Part shown: one piece after another, positions 6,701 through 25,341 of the stretch
Position numbering within the stretch: position 1 is the first letter of the stretch
Layout: each line of letters starts with the position of its first letter
From: Pseudomonadota bacterium
GTDB taxonomy: Bacteria; Pseudomonadota; Gammaproteobacteria; Burkholderiales; REEB80
Reading direction: 5' to 3'
NCBI GenBank assembly: GCA_028873515.1
Contig: JAGWIG010000026.1
Span: forward strand, 1 to 35,195
DNA length: 35,195 bases
Notes under the pieces: generated by a model
Seen by the model: only the letters and a program-made list of their open reading frames with translations
The model's database searches: none
Told to the model about the DNA's origin: nothing
Translations under genes and position numbers: made by a program

Positions 6701-7711
6701 ATGCAGAAGAAAAAAACCAGGCCTTTTGTACACCCACCCCATTTATCCTGGAAGGCGCAGCTGATGGCTTATATCAAGGCGCGTTTCGATCCGAAGGCCA
6801 ATGGCCGCTATACGGCTGACTTGACCAAGGATGCCTTCAAAAACAACCTGTTCCTGACTTTCAGGCTCCTGTGGCAGCAAGGCTACAAGGTCCTGCCCCG
6901 AAATCTTCGGGAAAAGCATGTCCACCTGGTGGCCCGCTACTGGGAGCAGCAGGGGCTGTCGGCTTCAACCATACAGAACAGGATTTGTACGTTACGTGTT
7001 TTTGCCGATCAGTGTATTGGCAAACGCGGGATGGTCAAGCGAAGTGCCCATTATGTCAGGGACAGGGCCAGTGTGACGAGAACCTATATCCCCGCCGAAG
7101 AAAAATCATGGACGCGCCGGGGCATCAATCCTTTGACGGTAATCGAGTTTATCGCCCCTTATGATTCCCATGTTGCCCTTCAGCTCAAGATGATGCATGC
7201 GTTCGGACTGCGCTGTGAGGAAGCGGTGTCAATTCGCCCCTGGCGGGCCGATTTTGGCGACAGGCTTTATGTTACGGAAGGCACGAAGGGAGGAAGGGTG
7301 CGCGATATCACCATTCGAAGTGTCTATCAGCGCCAGGTGCTTGATGAAGCCAAGCAAAAGGTCAGGGGAGTCCGGGCATTCCTGGGAGATCCGCGTTATA
7401 CGCAACGTCAGGCCATCTGGCACTTCGCGAACGTGCTGCGCAGGTTCGGCATTACCCGTAAAGGACTGGGAATTACCAGCCATGGACTTCGGCATGGCTG
7501 GGCCAATGATCTGTGCGAGAGCCTGGGGTGGACCCCGCCTCTTCGCCAGGACAAGGATACCTGCCCGGTTCTGCTCTCAGAAGATCAGGTCAGGCAGCGG
7601 CTGGCGCAGGAACTGGGCCATAACCGGAAGAATGTGACCTCGGCCTATGTTGGAGCCCGGATACGTCAGCCAGGTTCCCGCCCCAAAACTTCCCGGGGTC
7701 TGGATAAATAG
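6701..7711 (+). CDS. Tyrosine recombinase / integrase
   Basis: A 336-residue site-specific recombinase that would cut and rejoin DNA through a phosphotyrosine. The N-terminal half (about 20-110) is the DNA-arm/core-binding SAM-like part; the catalytic half begins near residue 130. Catalytic residues are visible: Arg171 in FGLRCEEA, a likely beta-hairpin Lys in GTKGGRVRDI, His261 and Arg264 in HGLRHG, His307 in ELGHNRKN and the nucleophile Tyr316 in SAYVG. There is an insert between Arg264 and His307, as in the integrase subfamily often found in plasmids and islands of proteobacteria. The ATG has AAGGAG seven bases upstream. The gene appears complete. It sits among small unknown ORFs, which points to an integrated element, but I cannot see its ends. 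Confidence 0.92.
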   Translation: MQKKKTRPFVHPPHLSWKAQLMAYIKARFDPKANGRYTADLTKDAFKNNLFLTFRLLWQQGYKVLPRNLREKHVHLVARYWEQQGLSASTIQNRICTLRVFADQCIGKRGMVKRSAHYVRDRASVTRTYIPAEEKSWTRRGINPLTVIEFIAPYDSHVALQLKMMHAFGLRCEEAVSIRPWRADFGDRLYVTEGTKGGRVRDITIRSVYQRQVLDEAKQKVRGVRAFLGDPRYTQRQAIWHFANVLRRFGITRKGLGITSHGLRHGWANDLCESLGWTPPLRQDKDTCPVLLSEDQVRQRLAQELGHNRKNVTSAYVGARIRQPGSRPKTSRGLDK

Positions 7712-8132: not shown

Positions 8133-8138
8133 TATAAT
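8133..8138 (+). promoter_or_regulatory. -10 box TATAAT giving a probable leaderless transcript
   Basis: A perfect TATAAT ends five bases before the ATG at 8144, so transcription would start at or next to the start codon. No good -35 lies at 16-18 bp spacing (TTGCAT at 8116 is too close), so an activator or an unusual sigma contact may be needed. Confidence 0.55.
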
Positions 8139-8143
8139 CAGGC

Positions 8144-8653
8144 ATGCCTAGAACCAAGGATCCGACAAACCTTCCTGAATTCAGCCGAAACCTGGCTGAG
8201 GCTTTGCATGCATCGGGTCTCACCCAGGATGAATTTGCCGATCAGCTGACCAGCCTGACTGAAACTGCTGTCAGCCGGGCACGTCTGGCCTCCTGGCTTG
8301 CGGGGGTGACCCCACGTTCCGATGCTGAAGGTTACCTGGTTGCTGCCCGGGAGATTTCGGGCGGCGGAAAAATCCCGCTGCCTGTCTGGGTCGAAGGCGC
8401 GATAGTTCAGGCAAGAATCAGGGCCTGGCTTGCCCAGGGGGTAAGCCGCAAGGTGCTCTGGCTGGCTGCAGGAATACCCCAGCAAACCCTGAGTGTTTGG
8501 GAATCTGGCCGGGTACGGGTCAAACGCCGCACCTGGATCCGGGTCGAGGCCTTGACTGAGGCCTGGATTAAAGCCCTGGATGATGCCCTGAAAGCGGCAG
8601 GTGAAATCCGCGATCATGCTGAAAATACCCGTCAGGAGCCGGATGCCCGGTGA
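8144..8653 (+). CDS. Predicted DNA-binding protein with two helix-turn-helix regions
   Basis: A 169-residue soluble protein. Residues 12-68 resemble an XRE/Cro HTH (GLTQDEFADQL, then SRARLASWLAG as recognition-helix region). A second HTH-like region lies near residues 92-140 (GVSRKVLWLAAGI, PQQTLSVWESGRV, then basic KRRTW). The C-terminus is a charged helix. I cannot assign a specific regulator family. There is no Shine-Dalgarno; a TATAAT ends five bases upstream, suggesting leaderless translation. Its position next to an integrase fits a regulator of an integrated element. Confidence 0.68.
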   Translation: MPRTKDPTNLPEFSRNLAEALHASGLTQDEFADQLTSLTETAVSRARLASWLAGVTPRSDAEGYLVAAREISGGGKIPLPVWVEGAIVQARIRAWLAQGVSRKVLWLAAGIPQQTLSVWESGRVRVKRRTWIRVEALTEAWIKALDDALKAAGEIRDHAENTRQEPDAR

Positions 8654-9161
8654 AAAATTTCGTTTTTCCGGTGTTTTGTGCCTGAAAGAGGCTGTGCGCC
8701 AGGGTAACGTTCGGGCCTGGCCCAGTACAGTAGCAACGGGTGTGGATTTGGCGCCTTTTTTTGTCAGCAGGTCCGGTTTTCGGGGAAGGGCTGCAGCTGG
8801 ACTCTTCGCCAGGGCAGCAAGATGCCTGGCGTGTCCAGAGCCTGACACACTCCCGGACTGCCGCTGCAGGCAGACGTCGAGGTAGCCCGTGTCCTGTCCC
8901 ATCAGTTTATTCAGCCCGATGAAAACAAGAATTCCTTAATGGCTTACTGGTTCCCGCGCACTGGGCCTGAATGGATGGGTTCAACCTGCTGTCCCTGATC
9001 CTGCCTTGTATCCAGGTTCGCTGCCCGGGGTTCCCGGGTGATTTATTTTGCCCCATTCAAGCTTTGGGGCTGTTTTTCTGTGTGGTGCAGCTGTGGCGGC
9101 AGGAGTTTTATGGAGAACACGTTATTTTCCGGTATCGGGATCGATCCGGTTTCAGGGATGA
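8654..9161. other. Intergenic, no recognised gene
   Basis: About 500 bp before the copper promoter. The ORFs here are short, mutually overlapping and lack ribosome sites, and I see no RNA gene or clear terminator. It may be decayed accessory sequence. Confidence 0.4.
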
Positions 9162-11863: not shown

Positions 11864-12164
11864 GGGGCATGAACTGAAACCGCATGCTGCCCCTGTTGTG
11901 GTGCAGCCCAGGAAAAAACAGCTCCTGACCCGCCTGAACCGCATAGGCGGGCAGGTAAAGGGAGTCGCGCAGATGGTTGAGGATGACCGGTACTGCATCG
12001 ATGTCCTGACCCAGGTCAGTGCCATCAAGTCAGCACTGGACGCTGTGGCCATGCAAATTATTGAGGACCATACCCAGGGGTGTGTGCAAAAGGCGATCAG
12101 GATGGGTAAGGGTGAGGAGGCCATTTCCGAATTAATGGGTGTGCTTAAAAAAATCAGCCGTTAG
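11847..12164 (+). CDS. csoR: CsoR-family copper-sensing repressor
   Basis: A 105-residue all-helical DUF156 repressor. The DNA-binding helix RLNRIGGQVKGV is at about 29-40. Metal ligands Cys50, His75 and Cys79 have the same 25- and 4-residue spacings as the Cu(I) site of M. tuberculosis CsoR, so copper rather than nickel, formaldehyde or persulfide is the expected signal. The ATG lies inside copZ with GAGGAGG six bases upstream, so it is translated with copZ. Two matching operators lie at 9170-9206, pointing to negative autoregulation of copA-copZ-csoR. Confidence 0.92.
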   Translation: MTYPGKGHELKPHAAPVVVQPRKKQLLTRLNRIGGQVKGVAQMVEDDRYCIDVLTQVSAIKSALDAVAMQIIEDHTQGCVQKAIRMGKGEEAISELMGVLKKISR

Positions 12165-12354: not shown

Positions 12355-12511
12355 GTGTATGAGGGAAAAGGGGCAGTATCCGGGGGGTTCACAGGCAGAA
12401 TCCAGAAAAGTACCCAGACCGGTTTTCAGCAACTTAAGGGCACAGGGAAGCTTCCGGTATTTTTCTCATCGGGTTAAACAGGGCCAGGGTGAGGTTGAAC
12501 CCGGCTTACAT

Positions 12512-12542
12512 TTATGATAAATTGGTTACTGTTTTATCATAA
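12512..12542. repeat. Perfect 10-bp inverted repeat, AT-rich
   Basis: TTATGATAAA (12512-12521) and TTTATCATAA (12533-12542) flank an 11-base centre. It is an AT-rich patch in GC-rich surroundings. It overlaps a possible promoter (TTGAAC at 12495-12500, 17-bp spacing, TAAATT at 12518-12523), so an operator role is plausible. Confidence 0.55.
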
Positions 12543-12613: not shown

Positions 12614-12655
12614 GGAACAGGGCAGCGGTACGGTACAGACTGCCTGTTCCTTTTT
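12614..12655 (+). terminator. Terminator-like hairpin or attenuator
   Basis: GGAACAGG(G)CAG at 12614-12625 pairs with CTGCCTGTTCC at 12640-12650 (one bulged G), with a 14-base loop and T5 directly after. It is about 90 bp downstream of the possible promoter and dyad, so a roughly 120-nt transcript could end here before the next genes. Confidence 0.6.
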
Positions 12656-12856
12656 CATCCTGGCATGCAGGCCCGGTGCATTTTCCTGCCTGGACAGGAC
12701 TGTCCCTGCATGTGAAGGGAATTCTTTCTGGATGTTATCTGGATACAGGCAGTCTGGGTCTGCGATCCCGATCCGTGAGCGGCGACGCTTTTTTACGGCC
12801 TGTACCGGGTTATCTGGGAGAAGACCCAGGTTCTCCATCCTGAGGCCAGTCCGTTC

Positions 12857-13132
12857 ATGTACTCACCATTCAGTTACGGGGCAGAACTTGAATATGTGGC
12901 TGGTCTTCTTGCCAATCTCCCTGTCCATGAAGCCATGGGCATACTGGGCCTTTCTGATTACGCGAGTGATATTCCGCAGCGTGAGGATCTGTTTCGCCAG
13001 GCGCTGGGGGTCATTGAGCATTCGGCATCCATCCCGGCCTTCCCTGAAATCGAGACCGACATGACGACCCACCCTGACAAGGAAGCCTTTCTCAACATGG
13101 TCCTGCAGCGGCTGCAGCGGTTTCTATCCTGA
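12857..13132 (+). CDS. Small protein of unknown function, first of a tandem paralogous pair
   Basis: A 91-residue soluble, mostly helical protein that I cannot assign to a family. It resembles the next gene's product along its length: LEYVAGLLANLP aligns with LSLFATLMIELP, then EAMGILGL with RALDLLHL, then EDLFRQALGVI with PELFSLALQAL, then a C-terminal FLNMVLQRLQRFL with FFVAQALHHYRGRL. The stop overlaps the next ATG (TGATG), so the two are translationally coupled. No clear Shine-Dalgarno precedes the ATG. The coupling and similarity make it a real gene despite its size. Confidence 0.62.
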   Translation: MYSPFSYGAELEYVAGLLANLPVHEAMGILGLSDYASDIPQREDLFRQALGVIEHSASIPAFPEIETDMTTHPDKEAFLNMVLQRLQRFLS

Positions 13133-13410
13133 TGCCTTTACCCGGGTCCTTTTTCCAGACGCAGGATTTATCCCTCTTTGCCACACTGATGATTGAACTG
13201 CCGCTTGACCGGGCCCTGGATCTTCTGCATCTGGATGTGCATCCCTGGATCGTGGCTCGTCCGGAACTTTTCAGTCTTGCCTTGCAGGCGCTGGCCCAGG
13301 GGAAAAAAGGCAGGATGGAAGAAAAGGTTCTGGCAGATGCGGACGGGGATGACATGCTGTTTTTTGTGGCACAGGCCCTGCACCATTATCGGGGACGTCT
13401 CGGTGGCTGA
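13132..13410 (+). CDS. Small protein of unknown function, second of a tandem paralogous pair
   Basis: A 92-residue acidic, helical protein, similar to the preceding product and probably arising from a tandem duplication that has since diverged. Its start shares one base with the upstream stop. The centre (GKKGRMEEKVLADADGDD) is charged and likely a loop between two helical parts. There are no Cys or His clusters, membrane segments or signal peptide. A heteromeric pair is the simplest idea, but no function can be given. Confidence 0.62.
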   Translation: MPLPGSFFQTQDLSLFATLMIELPLDRALDLLHLDVHPWIVARPELFSLALQALAQGKKGRMEEKVLADADGDDMLFFVAQALHHYRGRLGG

Positions 13411-13692
13411 AGTTGTCTGTGGCGTTTTTTTCATCTCCGTGCTGCACGGGTTTTCAAAAGGGACGCCAGCCCTGCTGGAAGATGCAGGTTCTGGATTGGG
13501 GGCCTGCCTGGTCAAAGACGATGATGGGCATGAAGGCCGAAAGATTTGCTTTAAGTGCTGGTCCAGTGTTTCATTTATGCAACACATTGGCACATAGCAG
13601 GCTATCAAAACGGTTTTTTTAGGGTAAGAGTCGTGTGATTTATCAAAAACTGGTGCATTATTTTCATTGCTTTGTCATTCGGGAGAATAATA

Positions 13693-14370
13693 ATGCGTCT
13701 ATCCCCTCTTGCTCTGGGACTTCTAGGCCTTTTTTCCATCACTGCCTATGCAGGCGGAACCGTTGCACCAGCACCTGAAGAAGCGCCGGCTGCAGCAACT
13801 GCACCTGCGCCTCTTCCTCCTCAGCCCGCACCGGCGCCAGTTGCTGCTCCGGCTGCCGTGCCCGAGGTTCAGGCCAGTGCACCGCAACCGCTCGAAACCT
13901 CTTTTGAACCGCATCTGTATGCCGGGGCATCCATTGGTGAGACCGATTACTCAGGATCAACATTTCTGGGCGCTACGCTGGTCGAACCCGGTCACACCAG
14001 TGGAGCCAAGTACCTCTTCAACAAGGTGTTCTTTGGTTATCGCTTCATTCCGAATCTTGCCCTGGAATTTGACGAGATTGATCTGGGTAAAAGTGCGAAC
14101 ATCACCGGAATTGGCAGCTCGCTTGATGTACTGGGCATTCTTCCCGTTGGAAGCTGCTTTGATCTTTTCGGAAAGCTGGGTGTGGCTGACATGGAAGCGC
14201 ATGGTGCGACGAGCAATGGTGGTTACCATACCGGGCTGAATTTCGGCATAGGCACCGATTATCACATCAACAAGACCTGGAGTGCCCGTGCTGAAATTGA
14301 ACATTTCAGGAAAGTGGGCAACGATCTGAAGGCCAACCTGTTCAGTCTGGGTCTGCAGTACGGTTTCTGA
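13693..14370 (+). CDS. Outer-membrane beta-barrel protein (OmpA-like barrel) with Pro/Ala-rich N-terminal linker
   Basis: A 225-residue exported protein. A signal peptide with a hydrophobic core (LALGLLGLFSI) ends at AYA, about residue 20. A Pro/Ala-rich linker of about 45 residues follows. From about residue 73 (HLYAGASIGETDY) the chain has the alternating pattern of an eight-stranded barrel and ends GLQYGF, with the terminal Phe recognised by the BAM machinery. There is no peptidoglycan-binding OmpA C-terminal domain. The ATG at 13693 has GGGAGA nine bases upstream; an earlier TTG is less likely. The gene seems to be monocistronic. Confidence 0.85.
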   Translation: MRLSPLALGLLGLFSITAYAGGTVAPAPEEAPAAATAPAPLPPQPAPAPVAAPAAVPEVQASAPQPLETSFEPHLYAGASIGETDYSGSTFLGATLVEPGHTSGAKYLFNKVFFGYRFIPNLALEFDEIDLGKSANITGIGSSLDVLGILPVGSCFDLFGKLGVADMEAHGATSNGGYHTGLNFGIGTDYHINKTWSARAEIEHFRKVGNDLKANLFSLGLQYGF

Positions 14371-24075: not shown

Positions 24076-25341
24076 ATGTTGATATTAACAATCTTCGCCA
24101 TGCTCTGCCTATTGTTGGTCATGTACATGATCAGCCGAGACTTCCTTTATCCGCCGGTAATTTTTACTGGCGTGTGGCTGATCAGTTTGGTCGGAGTTTT
24201 GCTTAGTGGAGACCTTTTTTACGAGCTATATGGGACTGCTCTGCTGGTTTACCTGATTGGGGCGATCGCATTTTCCGTAGGCGGTGTCTTGGGATTTTGG
24301 TTAATGTGTGGAAATACTAAACATGCTCAGATTGGTACGTCGAATGCATATTCGCGCCGTGCGATTTACCGTTTTCTTGATGTCGTGCTAATTGTCTTGG
24401 TCACGGGGTTGCCACTCTATTGGCGGGAAATTTCTAGCGGCGTTAGTAACGTAAATACGGAGTTGATGCTGTATACAATACGTCACAACGAAGTTGAAGC
24501 TAGTGGCAGCGCAGGTTCTTTTAATTTGATAAACAATTTTGGTGGCCTGGCGCAGTTCTTGGCTTTGGTGATGTTTTACGAAATAGATGGATCCTTCGAG
24601 AGAAGTTGGCGTGCCATCATTTCGGTTGTTCTCGCAATTGTGTATGGTGCAATGACTGGTACAAAAGGGGGGGTCGTCATCTTGTTGTTGACCCTCTACT
24701 TTATCTCCGCAATCAAGGGGCGTCGGTTTCGAGTTCTACCCCTGTTGGGAACCATTGGACTCGCTCTCTTTGGTTTTGCCGTTGGTGTGGTTGTTATTAA
24801 TTTGACATTCGAATCATATGCGAGCACGGGCGTCATGTTATCCGAGATTGCTGATCAGATACTTACCTATTGGCTTGGTGGCATTGTTGCTTTTCAGCGC
24901 ATTGCGGAAAATCCCAACGCCATCGAATCTACCCAGCCGATCTATCGTTTTTTTCTTGAGACAGCACACAGCTTGGGTATAAACGTGAAAGTCCCGTCTA
25001 TCCATGCAGACTACACCATGATCGGACCATCTATAAACGGTAATGTTTACACAATTTATTTTACTTATTTCAAGGATTGGGGGTGGTTTGGGACGGTTAT
25101 CATCATGTTGGTATTGGGGATGGGTTTAACATTTCTTTACAAGCGAGCAATGCAGGGAAAGACTATTGCAGTTTTGTTCTATGCCATGATGCTTGTTGGT
25201 TTGGTGATAAGTTTTAATGGTGAGCATTTTTTTCTTGGTCTTAACGGTTATATAAAAGCGTTTATATTTTTTTACGTTGTATACCAGCTTGTCCCGAACA
25301 TGGCGCGCAAGCCATATTGGAAATGGGAAGGACATGTTTAA
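24076..25341 (+). CDS. wzy: Wzy-type polysaccharide polymerase
   Basis: A 421-residue polytopic membrane protein with about ten hydrophobic segments and a large loop near residues 270-320 (between AFQRIAENPNAIE and TMIGPSINGNVYTIYFTYF), as in oligosaccharide-repeat polymerases. Sequence conservation in Wzy proteins is always low, so the call relies on topology, the GPSxNGNVYT-like loop and its position between wzx and the glycosyltransferases. It would join repeat units in the periplasm. Its last eight bases overlap the next gene. Confidence 0.8.
   Translation: MLILTIFAMLCLLLVMYMISRDFLYPPVIFTGVWLISLVGVLLSGDLFYELYGTALLVYLIGAIAFSVGGVLGFWLMCGNTKHAQIGTSNAYSRRAIYRFLDVVLIVLVTGLPLYWREISSGVSNVNTELMLYTIRHNEVEASGSAGSFNLINNFGGLAQFLALVMFYEIDGSFERSWRAIISVVLAIVYGAMTGTKGGVVILLLTLYFISAIKGRRFRVLPLLGTIGLALFGFAVGVVVINLTFESYASTGVMLSEIADQILTYWLGGIVAFQRIAENPNAIESTQPIYRFFLETAHSLGINVKVPSIHADYTMIGPSINGNVYTIYFTYFKDWGWFGTVIIMLVLGMGLTFLYKRAMQGKTIAVLFYAMMLVGLVISFNGEHFFLGLNGYIKAFIFFYVVYQLVPNMARKPYWKWEGHV

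Follow-up and report, generated by a model that had tools for sequence, protein, structure and literature searches.

Two overlapping, probably paralogous orphan genes between a copper operon and polysaccharide export genes

In the gap between a copper operon and a group of outer-membrane and polysaccharide export genes, the window (the whole stretch of DNA that was analysed, 35,195 nucleotides) holds two short open reading frames, here named P1 and P2, that meet at a single shared base. The locus raises the question of whether these are real genes, whether they descend from one ancestor and have relatives elsewhere, and whether their products may act together.

The gene pair and its products

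The preliminary description had placed genes of 91 and 92 codons with a one-base junction at this site, and both ORFs were found exactly there, as follows.

12857..13132, + strand: P1, orphan gene of 91 aa (ORF list, codon-usage score, AF2 model)
13132..13410, + strand: P2, orphan gene of 92 aa (ORF list, codon-usage score, AF2 model)
13130..13134, + strand: TGATG stop/start overlap of P1 and P2 (read from the sequence)

ATG is the start codon of both genes, and the single A of TGATG is common to the stop of P1 (TGA) and the start of P2 (ATG). P1 and P2 thus have the stop/start overlap (TGATG, 13130-13134) by which coupled gene pairs are recognised; such an overlap is typical of translational coupling, which we infer for this pair.

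Coding character was assessed by a codon-usage log-odds score trained on the 13 longer ORFs in the window (Pfam assignments for most of those scanned). P1 scored +0.189 and P2 +0.286 bits/codon; right-frame segments of the window's known genes average 0.158 bits/codon, the wrong-frame distribution has its 95th percentile at 0.076 and its 99th at 0.149, and alternative ORFs on the P1/P2 DNA score near or below zero. Both genes lie well within the known-gene range and exceed ~99% of wrong frames. Because of these scores, P1 and P2 are very likely real, translated genes, with the codon usage of real coding sequence that is expected of genuine orphan genes. Chance ORFs in an intergenic region would fit the lack of a homologue in the collections searched and the lack of a clear Shine-Dalgarno (no convincing one was seen before P1, where TGAGG lies ~11 bases upstream, nor before P2), but they would fit neither the codon usage of both frames nor the perfect register in which the stop of one ORF meets the start of the next, and are very improbable here.

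Both products are acidic and Cys-free (pI 4.5 for P1, 5.4 for P2), and no signal or membrane segment was found in either (maximum 19-residue Kyte-Doolittle mean 1.38 and 1.12). AlphaFold2 was given a two-row alignment, the other protein of the pair being the sole alignment row for each model. The P1 model is all-helical (pLDDT 70, pTM 0.62) and unstable between runs (pLDDT 48-70 over five models); the P2 model is likewise all-helical (pLDDT 80, pTM 0.69). The order of helices matches between the two models, a likeness that is partly circular because each protein was modelled on an alignment with the other. Foldseek searches of both proteins against the PDB, and of P2 only against viral models, gave no match below E 0.9, and the best VIA-align Z values (3.0 and 3.9) were to unrelated chains. 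These low-depth models suggest that both proteins are soluble, all-helical and of no known fold.

Relatives and probable common ancestry

No match to P1 or P2 was found in Pfam, NCBIfam, PHROG or PADLOC; among the sequences of solved structures (PDB), P1 had two matches and P2 had one, all with E >= 0.18 and unrelated. The earlier statement that the pair has no recognisable family therefore holds for these collections; homology to a known family, named beforehand as the finding that would speak against it, was looked for and not found. A possible resemblance of the pair to helices of the EAL/HDOD (YuxH-type) kind was a lead that no Pfam match supported.

P1 and P2, each queried against 150 related genomes including the only congener, returned self-matches only, and their own genome has one P1/P2 pair only. 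A two-sequence P1/P2 profile gave nothing credible in 200 relatives, 369 class genomes and 398 phylum genomes (sets that overlap one another), and no homologue was found in viral contigs, plasmids and phages. In a collection of genome contigs, queried with P1 only, the sole match was a TPR protein of Paraliomyxa sharing 'ALGVIEH', which was set aside as chance. From relatives to phylum level, and in the viral, phage and plasmid collections, the pair is thus without homologues outside its lineage; 'orphan' is meant relative to the collections searched, because only two species of the host's family are among the genomes searched.

The commonest sub-threshold match of the P1/P2 profile was rplV, and the N-terminal helix motif of ribosomal protein L22 (...LPVxxALxIL...) aligns to both P1 and P2. 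That the pair is an offshoot of L22 is nevertheless hardly credible: the similarity is limited to ~30-45 residues, P1 and P2 are acidic, all-helical in the models and without the basic C-terminal part of L22, and the match was picked from ~1,000 genomes, with a best E of 0.0015 for a single genome. A Pfam scan at a maximum E of 10 gave no L22 (PF00237) match to P1 or P2, and a home-made L22 profile aligned only ~27 residues of each, short of domain length. L22 was rejected as a relative, its recurrent appearance being explained by one helix motif and the many genomes searched.

Compared with each other, P1 and P2 gave no alignment in BLASTP. No similarity was found at the DNA level, and any duplication would therefore be old. 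MAFFT aligned the two co-linearly and near full length; few gaps were needed, and 24 columns (28%) are identical. The Smith-Waterman score (47) was matched by 13 of 10,000 full shuffles and the semi-global alignment (Z 5.6) by 4 of 10,000; of shuffles that preserve the hydrophobic pattern, 86-118 in 10,000 (~1%) reach the local score and 31 in 10,000 (0.3%) the semi-global one. L22 of the own genome and of the congener scores 45 against P2 through one helix, nearly as high as P1 does (47), so part of the P1/P2 likeness is the common amphipathic helix pattern.

On these alignments, an old duplication is the somewhat probable origin of the pair. P1 and P2 may instead be unrelated, adjacent by chance and both helical, with an amphipathic pattern behind their likeness and ordinary tight operon packing behind their coupling. 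The blank BLASTP, the ~1% of pattern-preserving shuffles that reach the score and the like scores of L22 helices agree with this; equal length, an alignment that is co-linear from the N- to the C-terminal part, and the fact that a single a-priori comparison was made (semi-global, 4 of 10,000 full and 31 of 10,000 pattern-kept shuffles) argue against it, and chance adjacency is regarded as possible but rather unlikely. The preliminary description had spoken of similar helical proteins and of an ancient duplication whose copies have stayed coupled. In the shuffle tests the similarity is moderate, and it escapes BLASTP; the duplication is plausible on moderate shuffle statistics, and paralogy is no more than probable.

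Upstream sequence and neighbouring genes

Two elements precede the pair.

12512..12542, unstranded: operator-like dyad of the TTATGATAAA-N11-TTATCATAA(A) type, with perfect 10-bp arms and an 11-base spacer
12630..12762, unstranded: long imperfect hairpin with 12-bp perfect outer arms at 12636-12647 / 12745-12756 (repeat search, folding)

The dyad (TTATGATAAATTGGTTACTGTTTTATCATAA) is AT-rich; perfect 10-bp-arm matches in the whole window number five, at four sites. It occurs once in the own genome (G000) and, in the congener (G001), only at the extreme end of contig C18; at <=3 mismatches it was found in 0 of 298 other related genomes, and with no copy there it was discarded as a regulon marker. 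Together with its upstream flank (12494-12542) it is kept in the congener at 82% over 49 bases (C18:1-49), downstream of csoR, beyond that gene and a short gene of the opposite strand, and the contig ends inside the palindrome. TTGAAC...TAAATT, with 17-base spacing, is also kept there and is a possible promoter overlapped by the dyad. Because the congener keeps the dyad although neither gene of the pair could be detected there, the dyad is older than, or independent of, the two genes. Of the operator-like dyad claimed before the pair, the dyad itself is real, but its 3' end lies 314 bases before the P1 ATG and it stands beside csoR in a congener without a detectable pair; a link to P1/P2 is no more than conjectural.

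The hairpin, between the dyad and P1, spans ~130 nt, has folding z values of -5.3 on the + strand and -4.6 on the - strand, and is present in a single copy in the genome. Rfam gave no credible family for it; it could be a structured RNA or a relic of a small mobile element. The terminator-like hairpin of the preliminary description corresponds at most to a marginal GC hairpin (at best 5 pairs) with a T run near 12776-12794, for which the terminator scanner made no call, the scanner finding terminator-like sites in the region at about chance frequency.

The small size and coupling of the two genes, the AT-rich dyad before them, their patchy occurrence and an integrase gene 5 kb upstream would suit a toxin-antitoxin-like or other selfish or defence pair. 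There is no match in PADLOC, Pfam, NCBIfam or PHROG, collections from which a new kind would be absent, and the congener keeps the dyad without a detectable pair. Paralogous partners with a shared layout are, to our knowledge, not typical of toxin-antitoxin pairs, which was counted against such a reading of P1/P2; it is considered quite improbable.

Upstream of the pair lie copA-copZ-csoR, with csoR ending at 12164; downstream lie an OMP_b-brl gene from 13672 or 13693 and then Poly_export and Wzz genes, all on the same strand as P1/P2; polysaccharide synthesis genes also belong to this downstream block. The pair occupies the gap between these two functional blocks, at flanking distances of ~690 and ~260 bases. 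Position and common strand could make it an accessory of a neighbour, either of the copper operon or of the downstream outer-membrane barrel and polysaccharide export genes. The width of both gaps is against this, as is the lack of Cys in P1/P2, which leaves no thiolate copper site. In the congener the copper operon and OMP copies are present but neither P1 nor P2 could be detected, so no functional link can be drawn, and an accessory of either neighbour is unlikely. The congener carries the 5' part of the OMP gene at two loci, which are situated elsewhere in its genome and cut at contig ends, with no P1/P2-like ORFs beside them.

Some features of the surroundings are recorded here. The OMP beta-barrel gene (13672-14370) is one of a set of multiple copies in each of the two genomes, and several contigs are broken within such copies (ends of G001:C13, C15 and C28; ends of G000:C111 and C250). 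At 8138-8902 (- strand), between the phage-type integrase gene (6701-7711) and copA, is a 254-aa ORF without a Pfam match. At 24076-25341, in the polysaccharide cluster, is a 421-aa ORF without a Pfam match; a polymerase or some other divergent polysaccharide protein is a possible product.

Joint reading and comparison with known systems

Genuine lineage-restricted genes, arisen as old tandem duplicates, coupled, and perhaps forming a heteromer with an accessory or regulatory role: this joint reading is offered tentatively. An old tandem duplication would have given the lineage-restricted P1 and P2, which would share one message, their translation coupled by termination-reinitiation at TGATG. 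Coupled translation would yield near 1:1 amounts of two proteins that are both small, acidic, cytosolic and all-helical and alike in layout, and P1 might pack against P2 in a heterodimer or mixed oligomer serving, at a guess, as an accessory or regulatory protein. In this chain the two reading frames, their coding signal, the one-base junction, the lack of homologues in the collections searched and a moderate likeness to each other are observed; we infer common ancestry, coupling and fold, and guess at the heteromer and its role. Neighbouring subunits encoded in operons tend to form complexes (PMC4742563); a P1/P2 heteromer is reasonable from operon adjacency, as a general tendency and not one specific to this case.

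The suggestion of an undescribed two-component module is conjecture: the pair is not conserved in other genomes, there being no homologues in the collections searched, nothing points to a partner or a function, and the dyad is present in a congener in which neither gene could be detected. A new lineage-specific heterodimeric regulator or effector, of unseen fold and controlled by the conserved dyad and by the strongly structured leader that separates it from P1, is far from probable. The best reading is an ordinary orphan gene pair, a common class, coupled in translation, probably a product of duplication and perhaps forming a heteromer. If both duplication and interaction were true, the locus would illustrate on a small scale how an orphan gene can duplicate and so supply its own partner; as long as homologues and function are lacking, it is one more entry in the large orphan-gene pool.

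Among known systems, the first helices of L22 (PF00237) have one helix-turn-helix stretch, with the pattern VAxxIRGLPVxxALxIL, in common with P1/P2, which is not counted as homology. Operon-encoded heteromers of paralogous subunits resemble the pair in their adjacent genes, coupled start, and similar size and layout; unlike them, P1 and P2 belong to no known family and form a heteromer only putatively. Orphan bacterial genes are short and without homologues outside their lineage, with coding features that are credible despite the lack of homology (PMC1824705). Such taxonomically restricted genes (orphans, ORFans) are like P1 and P2 in shortness, in having no homologues beyond the lineage and in credible coding features; P1 and P2 differ from the usual orphan gene in being two, coupled and probably paralogous.
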